From positions 64,172-117,335 of the forward strand of contig JAJDWI010000112.1 of NCBI GenBank assembly GCA_022825665.1: DNA of 53,164 bases, read 5' to 3'. The notes under the pieces are model-generated. The model was not told the origin of the DNA, ran no database searches, and was given only the letters and a program-made list of their open reading frames with translations. Position 1 is the first letter of the stretch. Each line of letters opens with the position of its first letter. The stretch comes from Candidatus Poribacteria bacterium. GTDB lineage: Bacteria; Poribacteria; WGA-4E; WGA-3G. Positions 14,795 to 20,932 of this stretch are shown one piece after another. A program made the position numbers and the translations under genes.

Positions 14795-17700
14795 TTACTC
14801 CCCAGCAATTACCAATTTCGTCAGGTCAGCAACCACATAGACAGGTTCTGCTATACGGTTTAACAACGCCAATCGATTTCTACGTAGGTCAGTATCTTCT
14901 GCCATAACAAGTACGTCGTCAAAAAACTTGTCTATTGCAGGTTGAAGTTCTGCCAACTTTGTCAACAGTTCTGAATATGCTCTTGCCTGAATGCTTTTAT
15001 CAAATTCAGGTTTTGCCTCGGTAATGACAGCATTTAGTTCTTTTTCAGCTTCATCTTTTAGCAGTGCAACATCTACGGTTATTGGTACATCTTCAGGCAA
15101 GATTCTAAGCACCCGATTGAGTGCATTATATACCTCTTCAAAATTGTGTGTCAAGCGAAATTCAGCAATGACACTGGCACGTTCGAGAATATCCACAATA
15201 TCAACATTACCGACTGCTAAAACAGCATCTGCAAGATCAGGGGCGTATTGATGTGTCTGTAAGATACCGCGGAGACGTTCTTTAATAAAGTTTAGGACAC
15301 TTGTTTCTGTATCGTCAACTAATTCTACTTCATACAGAGCAATTGCCTTCTGGACAATTGCATCTAAAGAGAGTGGCAACTGCCGATCTTGAAGGATACG
15401 GATTGTACCGAGTGCATGCCGACGCAACGAGTAAGGATCCTGTGAACCTGTGGGACGTTCCTCTATGCCGAAGTATCCGATAATGGTATCCAGTTTATCA
15501 GCGATAGCGAGAATCGCTCCGATTTGGGTTTCGGGCAAAGGTATATCCGCACCAAGCGGTTGGTAATGTTCGGCGATAGCAGTTGCGACCTCATCGGGTT
15601 CATCAGAGTTTTTGGCATAGTATCTGCCAGTAATTCCTTGCAGGGACGGGAATTCAATCACCATTTGGGTGGTTAAATCTGCTTTGCAGAGCCATGCTGC
15701 ACGTTCTGCGTGATGTATGGTTGCTTCTGCCAACTTCAATTCAGTACTGATGAACTTCACCAAATTCTTTAATCGTTCTGCTTTATCTAAGAGAGAACCA
15801 AGTTTGGCGTGGAAGACGACAGCACCTAAACGTTCAACTTTATCGGCAAGACTAGTTTTCTGATCTGCGCTGTAAAAGAACTCAGCATCGTTAAGCCGTG
15901 CGTGGAGCACACGTTCATTCCCGTGGCGAACACCATCAATATTGCCATCTGTACCGTTGGAAACCGTAATGAATTTTGATGCGAGTTCAGTATCACTTTT
16001 CCACATCGGAAAATAGCGTTGATGCTTTTTCATTGCTGTGATTAGCACTTCAGGTGGTATTTCCAGATGCGACTCACTGAAATTTCCAACAATCGGTTGC
16101 GGATTCTCTACGAGATAGTTGACGGTATCCAATAGTTCTTCGTCTATATTTGGAAGACACCCTTCGGTTTCAAAAACGGTTCGCACCTGTTTTTCAATTG
16201 TATCACGTCGTTGCTTTGGACACGCGATAACATCAACTTCTTGTAATTTCTGAATATAGTTGTTCACGTCTGCGGATACCAAAGTGATTGGATCGGGGTG
16301 CAAAGATCTATGTCCATAGGTAATACGACCTGCATGTGCCGCGCCGTAAGTACAGTTGACAACTTCATCTCCGAGTAATGCAACAAGCCATCGGATAGGT
16401 CGGGCAAAACGGGCAAATGCGTTTGGTTCTTCAGATTTTATTTCCCACCGCATCGTTTTCGGAAAACGGAGGGACTCAATCCATTCGGGTAGAAGGGTTT
16501 CCAATAGTTCGTAGGTAGATACTCCTTTTTCAAGTTTTGAAGCACAGATATACTCTCCACGGTCGGTCTCAACGATACGAAGCTCGGAGATTTCAACACC
16601 TTGCGTTTTTGCGAAGCCAATCGCTGCCTTTGTGGGTTCACCGTTTTCATCGTAAGCGATGCTTTTCGGCGGTCCTGTAACTTCTGTTTCCTGACTTTCC
16701 TGCATGGTTTTGACATTCTCTATAGCAAGCGTGATACGGCGCGGTGTCCCCAATGTCTGAATTTCACCAAACGGTATTCTGTGTTCAGATAGAGAATCGG
16801 TTGCAATCTTACTAAGTTGCTCAAGAACAGGCGGCATATAACTTGCGGGAATTTCTTCTGTGCCGATTTCAAAGAGGAAGTCGGCAGTATCAGGAAGGTT
16901 TGCTGTAGTGGGTTCTGTACGGTTAGAAGTTACGTCTATCGTGGTAGAGATATTTTCCGTGCCAAAACGTCCCATTAGAGGGTGTTCCATCTCTTCTCGT
17001 TGCGTTACATAGGCGCGGGCAATACGTTGTGCCAACCTACGCACACGTTCAATATAACTCACACGTTCAGTGACGCTGATAACACCACGTGCATCCAGCA
17101 TGTTGAAGGTGTGGGAGCATTTCAAAACATGGTCGGTAGCGGGAAGAACTAAACCTGTATCTAAACAGGCGTGGGTTTCTTTTTCATAAGTGCTAAACTG
17201 GTCAAAAAGCATGTCAACGTTAGCGTGTTCAAAGTTGTAGGTAGAGTATTCCACCTCACTTTGATGATGTACATCCCCATAGTTCAGGTGTTCATTCCAA
17301 CGAATATCAAAAAAGGTATCAACATCCTGTAGATAAAGAGCGATACGTTCAAGTCCGTAGGTAATCTCAGCACAAATCGGGGCAAGGTCTATGCTACCCA
17401 TCTGTTGAAAGTAGGTGAATTGTGTGACTTCTGCGCCATTCCACCAGACTTCCCAACCGAGTCCTGATGCACCGAGGGTCGGAGATTCCCAATCATCTTC
17501 TACAAAACGGATGTCATTTTTTCGTGGTGAGATGCCAAGATGATATAGACTCTCAAGATAGAGTGGAAGTACATCCTCTGGTGCTGGTTTGAGTATGACT
17601 TGATATTGGTAGTATGCGCCAAGACGGAATGGGTTTTCTGCGTATCTGCCATCGGTGGGTCTTCGGACAGGTTCTACATACGCTACCTTCCACGGTTCTG

Positions 17701-17833
17701 GTCCGAGGCAACGTAAAAATGTAGCGGGGTTAAATGTGCCTGCGCCGACTTCTATATCGCATGGTTGTTGAATAATACATCCTTGTTCTGCCCAAAATTT
17801 CTCTAATGCTAATATTATTTCTTGTAAGGTCAT
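14795..17833 (-). CDS. glyQS: fused glycyl-tRNA synthetase, alpha and beta subunits
   Basis: A 1012-residue single-chain bacterial-type glycyl-tRNA synthetase. Residues 1 to about 290 are the alpha subunit (catalytic core, with [19 protein letters not shown] and [10 protein letters not shown]). After a linker of about 35 residues the beta subunit begins at [16 protein letters not shown] and runs to the C-terminus, with the tRNA-binding HD-like and anticodon parts ([25 protein letters not shown]). In most bacteria these are two genes, glyQ and glyS. Fused forms are known, as in chlamydiae. It is essential for charging tRNA-Gly. A -35/-10 pair lies at 17884-17913. Only a weak ribosome site precedes the ATG. 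Confidence 0.95.
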
Positions 17834-17935: not shown

Positions 17936-17964
17936 TTGAATAAATGTGAAAGGGTTGTTATACT
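17936..17964 (+). promoter_or_regulatory. promoter of the 862-residue gene
   Basis: TTGAAT (17936-17941), a 17-bp spacer and TATACT (17959-17964). The expected start near 17971 leaves a leader of about 30 nt with AAAAGG ahead of the ATG at 18001. The promoter is close to consensus, so the gene should be expressed on its own. Confidence 0.6.
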
Positions 17965-18000: not shown

Positions 18001-20589
18001 ATGAACAATATCCGCTTTGATATTCGACTACGACCTATAAGGTTTGGATTTTTAGTTCGTCCCGATGATTCAGAAAAGACACTTGAGATTTTTCGACTCA
18101 ATACATGTCTGTGGGGAGGTATGTTCAATCCGATTATTCCGAAATTTAAAAATGTGCCTTCTTGGTTAGAAGATGAAGGGTTTCATTATGAGGATGCCAA
18201 ACACCTCATCAACAGTTATTTGGATTTTTTTGAACCTGATTTTCTTGTGGAAGCAGAAGAAGGTTTAGCGGATGAATTGGGTTATGATCCGAAAAGAGTT
18301 GTAAAACTTGATAATATTCTTGAAGAACTTGGTGGAAACTATGCACATAGATATGGATTAGGTGTCTATGGAATCTATAGGGATTTATATGCAAATACTT
18401 TTCAGTTTGAACAACGGTATAAGCATAATATTGTATTGGTAAAACCCGCTGATACGGCTTTCACACATTTGGCTGCGGCTAATTTCGGGAGTTTTCCTGT
18501 TGAAGAAAAATTTGAATATTTTGAACACTATTATATGGATATATTTCGTCCAAAACACATAGTGTTTGATAGTGCTGCATTTTCAAGTTTGTATCACTCC
18601 AATTCCAATTATAGCACCCCTTTAACTATCGGACGCCAAGGTATCTATGTGCAATATAACGGGCCTATGTTGTCAACACTATTTATACTTAATGCAAAGG
18701 AATCAAATGACGTAGTTGATTTTTGGAATCTACGAGCAATACACAAACATGTTGTTGCGATCCCTATTCAATGGCTTGAAGAACTTGTTCCCTTCTGTAA
18801 AAGATTCATAAGTGAAAATCACCTTCGTCTACCCGAAGATCCAAGTCCGAATATAGTTGGTCCCGTTATAATGTTTTCACAATCTCTGTCTGAGACTAAT
18901 ATAGAAGAAATTATTGAAAAATATCTTCTTATTGACGAAGAAGATATTTGCTCAGTAAGAAAATGGGGTCCAATAGTCTGGTATAAGTATTCAAGGAGAC
19001 ATACTTTTCCTGATATTAAGAATTTAGGGATAGATGAAAATACCCCTGAATATCGACAATTCATGTATAGAGCATCAGCAAAGTTTCCTAGTCCTACCCG
19101 TCCGATCTTGGTGGCGGATAGGAAAATTATGAACATACAAGTTGATAATGACAAACCTGAAATTCGATTTGATACGATCATTCCAAATTTTGCTAATGTA
19201 TATTATAACCTATATCGCGTAGCAAATGTTGTCAGATTACAAGATTGGAGTAATGCTCCCCAGTATGTTAGATTGCGGTATAGAAGTGAATACGATCAAA
19301 TCGCAACAGTTTTTCCATGTAACTATAAAAATCCTTCTGTTCCGAAATTCCAACCTAATGCTGAACAGGAATGGGAATTTCTTTTGCCCACTACAGAAGG
19401 GTTCGTCATTTTTCCTTCTGATGAACAAATGTATGAACAGTGGGATTTAATGGATGGAACAACTGCATTCAACCAGTGGTTCAACGACAACCAAATTCCT
19501 GCTATCCGTTCTGATGGGGGTAGAACAACGGAACAGATAATTCAAACACTGGAAAGTTTAAAGCGAGGTGTTAGCTATTTAGCAAATCAAAATATTATTA
19601 AATTACTCAATGAAATGGCAAACAGTGCTACCAAAACTGCTCATTATAAAGAATTTGAAAATAAGATTAATAATGCGATCACTTACGAAAAACGTAAAAA
19701 GCAAACATTTGATAAATTAGTCAAGCATGGTGCAGTAGAACTTGGGTATGAACTTAAGTGTAACAAATGCAACAGTAAGAATTGGTATTCGGTAAAAGAA
19801 CTTGATTACGTACTCACTTGTGATCTGTGTCAAAAACAGTTTAACTTTCCTATTACTACTCCTTTAAGTGAACATTCCAGATGGGCATATCGCGTAGTAG
19901 GTCCTTTTGCTCTTCCCGATTACGCCATTGGTGGATATGCTGCATCACTTGCTATTCGTTTCTTTGCAGATATTATAGGTGGATATGATAAGGCGGAGGT
20001 TACTTGGTCGACAGGTCAACAACTTGATTTGCCACCAAGTGAAAAGGTTGAGAGCGATTTTATGTTATGGTATCGTCGTAAAGAAATTTGGCCCGTAGAA
20101 AGAACTTTTTTTGCGTCTGGTCTACCAAATTTTGGCATAGAAAAACAAACCGAAACATTGTTCGGTGAAGCCAAGAGTTTTGGAAAACCTGGTGAGGATG
20201 TTTTCAAACAAGACGATATTGATAAAATGAAATTATTGGCTGAGGCGTTTCCATGTTCTATATTTGTGTTTGCCACAATGAGAGATGCGACAGATCTAAC
20301 AAAAGGAGAAATTGAACACATCAGGAAATTAGCTGAATGGGGACGGGAATATGATAACGAAAGAAAACAAACACGCGCACCAATTATAATGCTTACAGGA
20401 ACAGAACTTTTCACAACAGGTTCTTTAAGGAGTTCGTGGGAAGAAAAAGGTGGACAACATAGGAAATTGAGTGACCGAACTTCGTTAGGAATCCCCGATC
20501 TGAGAATATTGGCAGATATTACACAGTTTTTATATTTGGGAATGCAGCCTCACGGTTCAAGAGTAAGAGAAATTATAGATTCAATTTGA
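18001..20589 (+). CDS. large protein with zinc ribbon and PD-(D/E)XK-like motif, candidate defence nuclease
   Basis: An 862-residue cytoplasmic protein of unknown function. The N-terminus (RLRPIRFGFLVRPDD, then NTCLWGGMFNPIIPKF) is a recurrent but unnamed start in bacterial proteins. A long middle part has no recognised motif. Near residue 587 a zinc ribbon appears: C587-x2-C590 and C607-x2-C610. A WAYRVVGPF segment follows, then LFGEAKSFG with E723-A-K725, the core of a PD-(D/E)XK-type nuclease site, followed by DIDKMKLLAEAF. The zinc ribbon followed by an E-x-K nuclease module recurs in restriction-like proteins. The gene is visibly more AT-rich than its neighbours and has its own promoter, which suits a transferred single-gene system. 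The substrate is unknown. Confidence 0.6.
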   Translation: MNNIRFDIRLRPIRFGFLVRPDDSEKTLEIFRLNTCLWGGMFNPIIPKFKNVPSWLEDEGFHYEDAKHLINSYLDFFEPDFLVEAEEGLADELGYDPKRVVKLDNILEELGGNYAHRYGLGVYGIYRDLYANTFQFEQRYKHNIVLVKPADTAFTHLAAANFGSFPVEEKFEYFEHYYMDIFRPKHIVFDSAAFSSLYHSNSNYSTPLTIGRQGIYVQYNGPMLSTLFILNAKESNDVVDFWNLRAIHKHVVAIPIQWLEELVPFCKRFISENHLRLPEDPSPNIVGPVIMFSQSLSETNIEEIIEKYLLIDEEDICSVRKWGPIVWYKYSRRHTFPDIKNLGIDENTPEYRQFMYRASAKFPSPTRPILVADRKIMNIQVDNDKPEIRFDTIIPNFANVYYNLYRVANVVRLQDWSNAPQYVRLRYRSEYDQIATVFPCNYKNPSVPKFQPNAEQEWEFLLPTTEGFVIFPSDEQMYEQWDLMDGTTAFNQWFNDNQIPAIRSDGGRTTEQIIQTLESLKRGVSYLANQNIIKLLNEMANSATKTAHYKEFENKINNAITYEKRKKQTFDKLVKHGAVELGYELKCNKCNSKNWYSVKELDYVLTCDLCQKQFNFPITTPLSEHSRWAYRVVGPFALPDYAIGGYAASLAIRFFADIIGGYDKAEVTWSTGQQLDLPPSEKVESDFMLWYRRKEIWPVERTFFASGLPNFGIEKQTETLFGEAKSFGKPGEDVFKQDDIDKMKLLAEAFPCSIFVFATMRDATDLTKGEIEHIRKLAEWGREYDNERKQTRAPIIMLTGTELFTTGSLRSSWEEKGGQHRKLSDRTSLGIPDLRILADITQFLYLGMQPHGSRVREIIDSI

Positions 20590-20634: not shown

Positions 20635-20862
20635 TTACAGTAGGTAATGCATTCCCTCTGGTAGTTCACCAGTATAATGTATCGCTGCGCCACCTTCATA
20701 ATGTCCAGAGGCTTCATAAATATCGTCCCGAGATTTGCTATGGACTGCAACAATTCCTGATAACAACTCGGTATTTTCACTGATTTCACAATCAATGATA
20801 AACAGCCACTGATCAGGGTATTTCTCAGTCATTTCTTCAAGCGTCATACGTTCCTTTTCCAT
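20635..20862 (-). CDS. small conserved hypothetical protein
   Basis: A 75-residue acidic protein beginning MEKERMTLEEMTEKYPDQWL. The start at 20862 is preferred over the longest open frame (20931) because GGAGAA lies 6 bp upstream and because MTxEExxxxYPxxW is the usual start of this small family. Such proteins occur in cyanobacteria and others, often near toxin-antitoxin-like genes. No domain is assigned, and the protein probably folds as a small alpha/beta domain ending in a YTGELPEG segment. It lies between the AT-rich gene and a sulfatase with no obvious link to either. Confidence 0.6.
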   Translation of the reverse strand: MEKERMTLEEMTEKYPDQWLFIIDCEISENTELLSGIVAVHSKSRDDIYEASGHYEGGAAIHYTGELPEGMHYLL

Positions 20863-20932
20863 TATATTTCTCCTACACGTACCGGTATCGTGAGATATGG
20901 TATTATACCTAATTATAGTGACTATTGTCAAA

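Follow-up and report, generated by a model that had tools for sequence, protein, structure and literature searches.

The gene described here lies in a 53,164-nt stretch of DNA (the whole stretch that was analysed, referred to below as the window) from a member of the Poribacteria, a sponge-associated type of bacteria. The predicted open reading frame of 862 residues agrees exactly, start codon included, with the one given in a preliminary description of the locus, which was made from the sequence alone (Table 1). The AT-richness reported there was also confirmed: the GC content is 36.6% in the gene and 41.7% in the window, and a value this low is reached in only about 1% of segments of equal length. 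Third-position GC is 0.27, the lowest value when compared with six neighbouring genes (0.32-0.42), and GC content falls below that of the flanking DNA in 25 of 26 relatives of the gene. The near-consensus promoter previously ascribed to the gene did not stand up to comparison with shuffled sequence, because the best upstream site reaches a score of 9/12 and 19 such sites were counted versus 11.4 ± 3.3 in the shuffles. TTGAAT-N17-TATACT is therefore a conceivable promoter, but not a notable one.

Table 1. Features of the candidate nuclease gene and of its upstream region (positions refer to the window).
Feature	Position	Strand	Basis
Possible extended -10 promoter, TTGAAT-N17-TATACT with TG extension	17936..17964	+	9/12 matches
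Candidate defence nuclease gene, whole unit, 862 aa	18001..20589	+	Open frame, ATG start
N-terminal region, residues 1-275, unnamed conserved domain	18001..18825	+	Invariant columns in two alignments
Middle-region insertion, residues 331-357, window copy only	18991..19071	+	Alignment gap pattern
Zinc ribbon, C587-x2-C590 ... C607-x2-C610	19759..19830	+	Four Cys in 31/31
PD-(D/E)XK-like nuclease core, residues ~639-799	19915..20397	+	AF2 secondary structure, pLDDT ~50-73 in core
E684-x-D686, predicted metal-binding, second core strand	20050..20058	+	31/31
E723-x-K725 (E-x-K motif), third core strand	20167..20175	+	30/31

As previously noted, the neighbours are unrelated to the gene; they are encoded on the opposite strand, with a GlyQS fusion on one side and a small ORF and a sulfatase on the other; no defence genes adjoin the window copy. 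The GlyQS gene (positions 14795-17833), in which the alpha and beta chains of glycyl-tRNA synthetase are apparently fused into a 1012-aa protein, is conserved in the genus. The small ORF (98 aa, positions 20635-20931) recurs at this position in related genomes, some of which have multiple copies (L096); it was considered as a possible partner gene and rejected, because it occupies this site also in genomes devoid of the nuclease. The synteny of GlyQS, small ORF and sulfatase extends across related genomes; between GlyQS and the small ORF, the gene under study is missing in G016, G009, G002 and G015 and present in G014. The presence of the same syntenic site without the gene in sister genomes is most simply explained by acquisition of a single gene in the lineage of the window; no target duplication was seen at the window locus.

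The deduced protein is made up of three parts: a conserved N-terminal region, a variable middle, and a zinc ribbon with a nuclease-like core. The N-terminal region has no match in Pfam, and its conserved residues (R11-P12, W38-G39-G40, N43, G163, D237, W242-N243 and R245) define the signatures RP, LWGG..NP (WGG..NPI) and D....WNLR. This domain is always paired with the C-terminal module, barring fragments and one copy truncated at a contig end, and our search found no fusion of it to a different effector. A sequence from G003 that was taken at first sight for the N-terminal domain on another effector was discarded, being a copy of the third subfamily (see below) broken at a contig end. As for the middle region, none of the 30 other aligned sequences has residues at columns 337-357. 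One relative of 706 aa (L030:8838-10958) lacks residues ~398-526, which may mean either that the middle region is dispensable or that this gene is damaged.

Conservation was assessed on an alignment of 31 full-length, divergent relatives from several phyla. Both the zinc ribbon C587/C590/C607/C610 and the sequence G-E723-A-K725-S were found in the protein and in the alignments at exactly the positions originally proposed. The four cysteines, E684 and D686 are present in every sequence, and the eight motif residues sit among about 25 columns that are kept in at least 30 of the 31 homologues. Lack of conservation of E723 and K725 had been set beforehand as an observation that would refute the nuclease assignment; both residues are retained in 30/31, and the assignment is not refuted. 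The sole exception is L076 (L076:1228-3549), a relative from another phylum, where Q-A-T replaces E-x-K. This protein, which retains the zinc ribbon and the E-x-D motif and is adjoined by a weak Mrr_cat match, is possibly an inactive or repurposed nuclease. The C-terminal module of a distant third subfamily could be aligned at the profile level (hhalign 97.8%, E 9e-13), and its motif, EVDIACIQDGKFIIGEVK, would in our reading represent a textbook strand 2 - strand 3 pattern.

The C-terminal 301 residues were modelled with AF2 using an alignment of four sequences, which left aside some 20 further homologues. The resulting model (pLDDT 54) shows the order helix, strand, strand, strand, helix, strand, helix, strand and, at this low confidence, assigns E684/D686 to the second strand and E723/K725 to the third. 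The acidic residues and the E-x-K motif are thus located on predicted core strands 2 and 3, the arrangement by which a PD-(D/E)XK core is recognized. A Foldseek search with the same model (pLDDT 54) gave zero matches at E <= 0.001. Of the non-significant matches, Cas4, the R2 endonuclease and Bax1 were among the top ones for the PDB, with RecU and Can2 lower, and DUF2726 and MmcB-like proteins were among the top viral ones. The full-length model, built from two sequences, reached a pLDDT of 34. The predicted C-terminal fold is consistent with PD-(D/E)XK, short of proof.

Searches of the full protein and of family members against Pfam, NCBIfam, PADLOC and PDB sequences returned only chance zinc-ribbon matches, and no PADLOC family, the HEC models included, matched the window protein (0 families at E <= 1). 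Matches to JetA (PADLOC; one of 22 members, E 0.007) and to SAMHD1 (E 0.24) are at chance level, and L047 was dropped as a relative because its short match is spurious. The type IV nuclease families Mrr, McrBC and GmrSD were unmatched in Pfam, NCBIfam and PADLOC, and no ATPase family match was obtained for any family member scanned. Judged by these family-match tests, the protein falls outside Mrr, McrBC, GmrSD and PrrC/RloC, and outside all PADLOC families. No relatives were found in PHROGs and in the INPHARED phage collection.

Relatives are nevertheless present in 23 of 85 poribacterial genomes, and full-length homologues occur at 23 poribacterial loci, on plasmids and on viral contigs. A copy on a Photobacterium damselae plasmid shows 33% identity and is in turn 90% identical to the copy of a Mu-like prophage contig; further homologues come from two P2-like phage contigs, from Bradyrhizobium, Burkholderia and Piscirickettsia plasmids, and from one genome of another phylum. 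Each of G058, G006 and G011 carries two members belonging to different subfamilies. The clade of the window copy (support 100) includes copies from another genus and another family, but not those of G002 and G006, which are of the same genus; this grouping indicates horizontal transfer, although the exact sister of the window copy within the clade is supported by values of only 12 and 47. Short fragments of the gene (L080 in G007, G037:C1:1909210-1909326 and G024:C1:3907146-3907259) are decayed copies, as expected if the gene is gained and lost often. The 862-aa protein therefore belongs to an undescribed, patchily distributed and mobile family, which defence catalogues other than those searched may list.

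The genomic neighbourhoods of the homologues were surveyed for enrichment in defence genes, as had been suggested. With a background of 228 N6_Mtase genes in the 20 genomes searched (about 106 Mb), an N6_Mtase gene lies within 5 kb of the family gene at no fewer than 8 of 23 loci, versus 0.66 expected (binomial p ~1.5e-7; p ~1e-6 after merging related loci). Location of the homologues in conserved housekeeping operons, another observation named as contrary to a defence role, was not found; the contexts are type I restriction-modification (R-M) operons, type IIG or Hma neighbours, and phage or plasmid cargo. At four loci (L024, L025, L026 and L028) the gene is part of a type I R-M operon with the order hsdM, family gene, hsdS, hsdR, and in L024 and L026 it is preceded by HEC-03 genes. 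A copy of the third subfamily likewise has hsdM on one side and hsdS on the other, but in a different type I system (L079). Copies of the distant clade adjoin type IIG enzymes (L031, L032, L034 and L039) or HmaB/HmaC (L038), with TIR, HNH, Schlafen AlbA and FRG genes nearby. The earlier characterization of the gene as stand-alone is thus valid for the window, phage and plasmid copies, but not for the several close relatives embedded between hsdM and hsdS.

This embedding raises the possibility that the protein is a guardian of restriction like PrrC, that is, a latent nuclease toxin silenced by the type I R-M complex and freed by a phage anti-restriction protein, with abortive infection as the outcome. 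Such an arrangement is well established for PrrC/EcoprrI, and type I loci carry the rlo genes as inserts (PMC2610378). In the present family, the position between hsdM and hsdS is taken by five copies, which belong to two subfamilies; the gene and hsdS are separated by short gaps in the operons of clade I, and the few hsd genes present elsewhere in the window genome could act in trans. However, an invariable linkage to type I systems, the hallmark of such a guardian, is not what was observed: five loci of those examined are of this kind, and the others are alone or beside other systems, with the phage, plasmid and window copies standing alone and the distant-clade copies adjoining type IIG or Hma systems instead. 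The many copies free of R-M genes argue against the PrrC logic as a general rule. In addition, among nine operons of one poribacterial type I lineage (including L119, which is truncated by the end of its contig) the content of the hsdM-hsdS slot differs, with the family gene in 4/9 and different cargo in others. Since the same type I operons exist without it, the gene is cargo rather than an R-M subunit. PrrC and RloC, which are restriction-linked anticodon nucleases (PMC2610378), are similar in being nuclease effectors carried by type I loci, and RloC sometimes occurs alone, but they are ABC-ATPases with an Arg-Glu-His ACNase triad, whereas no scanned member of the present family has an ATPase match. 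On the whole, we consider a guardian role, the main rival reading, unlikely.

Further information came from the copies on mobile elements. In the P2-like phage contig L082, the family gene and a SIR2-STAND gene are flanked by a gpA-like gene for replication (phrog_91) and by gpQ, the portal gene (phrog_68), and the gpA-gpQ interval is the anti-phage hotspot of P2-like phages described by Rousset et al. (2022; PMC9122126). The adjoining gene (L082:4748-7243) encodes an 831-aa protein with SIR2_2 and nSTAND NTPase domains. In L083, also P2-like, the family gene is found between lysis genes and a baseplate gene, and in L043 inside a Mu-like prophage (MuA, MuB). The Bradyrhizobium copy has an AbiJ-like abortive-infection protein and a PrlF/YhaV pair nearby. 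In the stretches read, the Mu-like prophage and plasmid copies have no R-M neighbours, and no methylase gene adjoins the window, phage or plasmid copies, an absence that applies in cis only.

These neighbours bring to mind an abortive-infection effector, whose N-terminus would sense a phage protein or an infection-specific ligand and whose nuclease would degrade the nucleic acids of host and phage, possibly including RNA. A single large multi-domain protein would suit such a role, a SIR2-STAND gene adjoins the family gene in L082 and an AbiJ-like protein does so in L086, and nucleic-acid binding is conceivable for the zinc ribbon. On the other hand, the sequence gives no pointer to a particular ligand, and PD-(D/E)XK enzymes mostly cleave DNA. 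We regard this role, too, as rather doubtful. A DNA-repair or recombination nuclease, or a selfish-element gene hitchhiking with defence genes, is very improbable considering the patchy presence (23/85 genomes), the decay fragments, the defence context in three subfamilies and the lack of any link to repair genes, even if repair nucleases also combine zinc ribbons with PD-(D/E)XK-type cores and the weak Foldseek matches include Cas4, RecU and Bax1.

The candidate anti-phage or anti-plasmid nuclease of the preliminary description is supported by the conservation of E723 and K725 (30/31) and by the defence-type, non-housekeeping contexts. A defence function, presumably directed against phages, is highly probable, although the neighbourhood evidence for it is guilt by association; an active PD-(D/E)XK nuclease is quite probable as well, and it seems likely that the enzyme is autonomous rather than dependent on an R-M system. 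Taken together, the reading we prefer, and consider on balance probable, is a mobile, autonomous zinc-ribbon/PD-(D/E)XK defence nuclease predicted to work somewhat like a type IV enzyme. The N-terminal region and the variable middle probably serve recognition; as a guess, their target would be a phage product or some property of the invading phage or plasmid DNA, perhaps base modification. Recognition would then license cleavage of DNA, the presumable substrate, by the C-terminal core, where E684, D686, E723 and K725 would be the catalytic set of a PD-(D/E)XK core fused to a zinc ribbon. The enzyme would act alone, without a cognate methylase, much as the modification-dependent restriction enzymes of type IV do; that its trigger is modified DNA we suggest only tentatively. 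We propose that the gene is frequently retained beside R-M systems because the nuclease covers phages that those systems miss.

Mrr and similar type IV enzymes are single polypeptides composed of a recognition part and a PD-(D/E)XK-type core, with no cognate methylase. The present protein resembles them in being a single polypeptide with a proposed recognition part and a predicted core, and in the absence of a methylase in cis, but differs in its N-terminal region, in the zinc ribbon and in the absence of a sequence match to Mrr_cat. As no type IV family is matched, we liken it to these enzymes and do not file it as a member. In Vibrio cholerae VPI-2, TgvAB is an experimentally proven, GmrSD-like type IV system inside a type I R-M operon, for which a partnership of complementary restriction activities has been postulated (PMC11411939). 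The embedding in a type I operon is shared with our family; however, TgvAB consists of two GmrSD-family proteins, as opposed to one polypeptide, from a different family, with a zinc ribbon and a predicted PD-(D/E)XK-type core. The HEC-03A/B genes of PADLOC-DB, too, are found in the hsdM-hsdS slot and lie embedded within larger defence loci, but HEC-03B is an AAA ATPase and HEC-03A is PIN-like (weak Pfam match). More speculatively, the family could represent a new class of single-protein immune nucleases, with a new recognition domain (RP..., WGG..NPI, D....WNLR), found as cargo of bacterial type I R-M slots and as a phage hotspot gene, in which the N-terminus may detect some feature of DNA or of nucleotides through undescribed chemistry.

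If the preferred reading is correct, the gene defines an anti-phage (or anti-plasmid) nuclease family unlisted in Pfam, NCBIfam and PADLOC, which spans Poribacteria, Pseudomonadota plasmids and phages. The hsdM-hsdS slot of the poribacterial type I lineage is a hidden defence hotspot, and such a variable cargo slot offers a simple hunting ground for unknown defence genes, comparable to that of the HEC genes in Hma loci. In this lineage (L115-L119, L024-L026 and L028), HsdM is ~74-80% identical to the L026 copy, and the slot holds the family gene, HEC-03, DUF3800-like or (in our reading) DUF2971-like genes, small toxin-like genes, or little at all.
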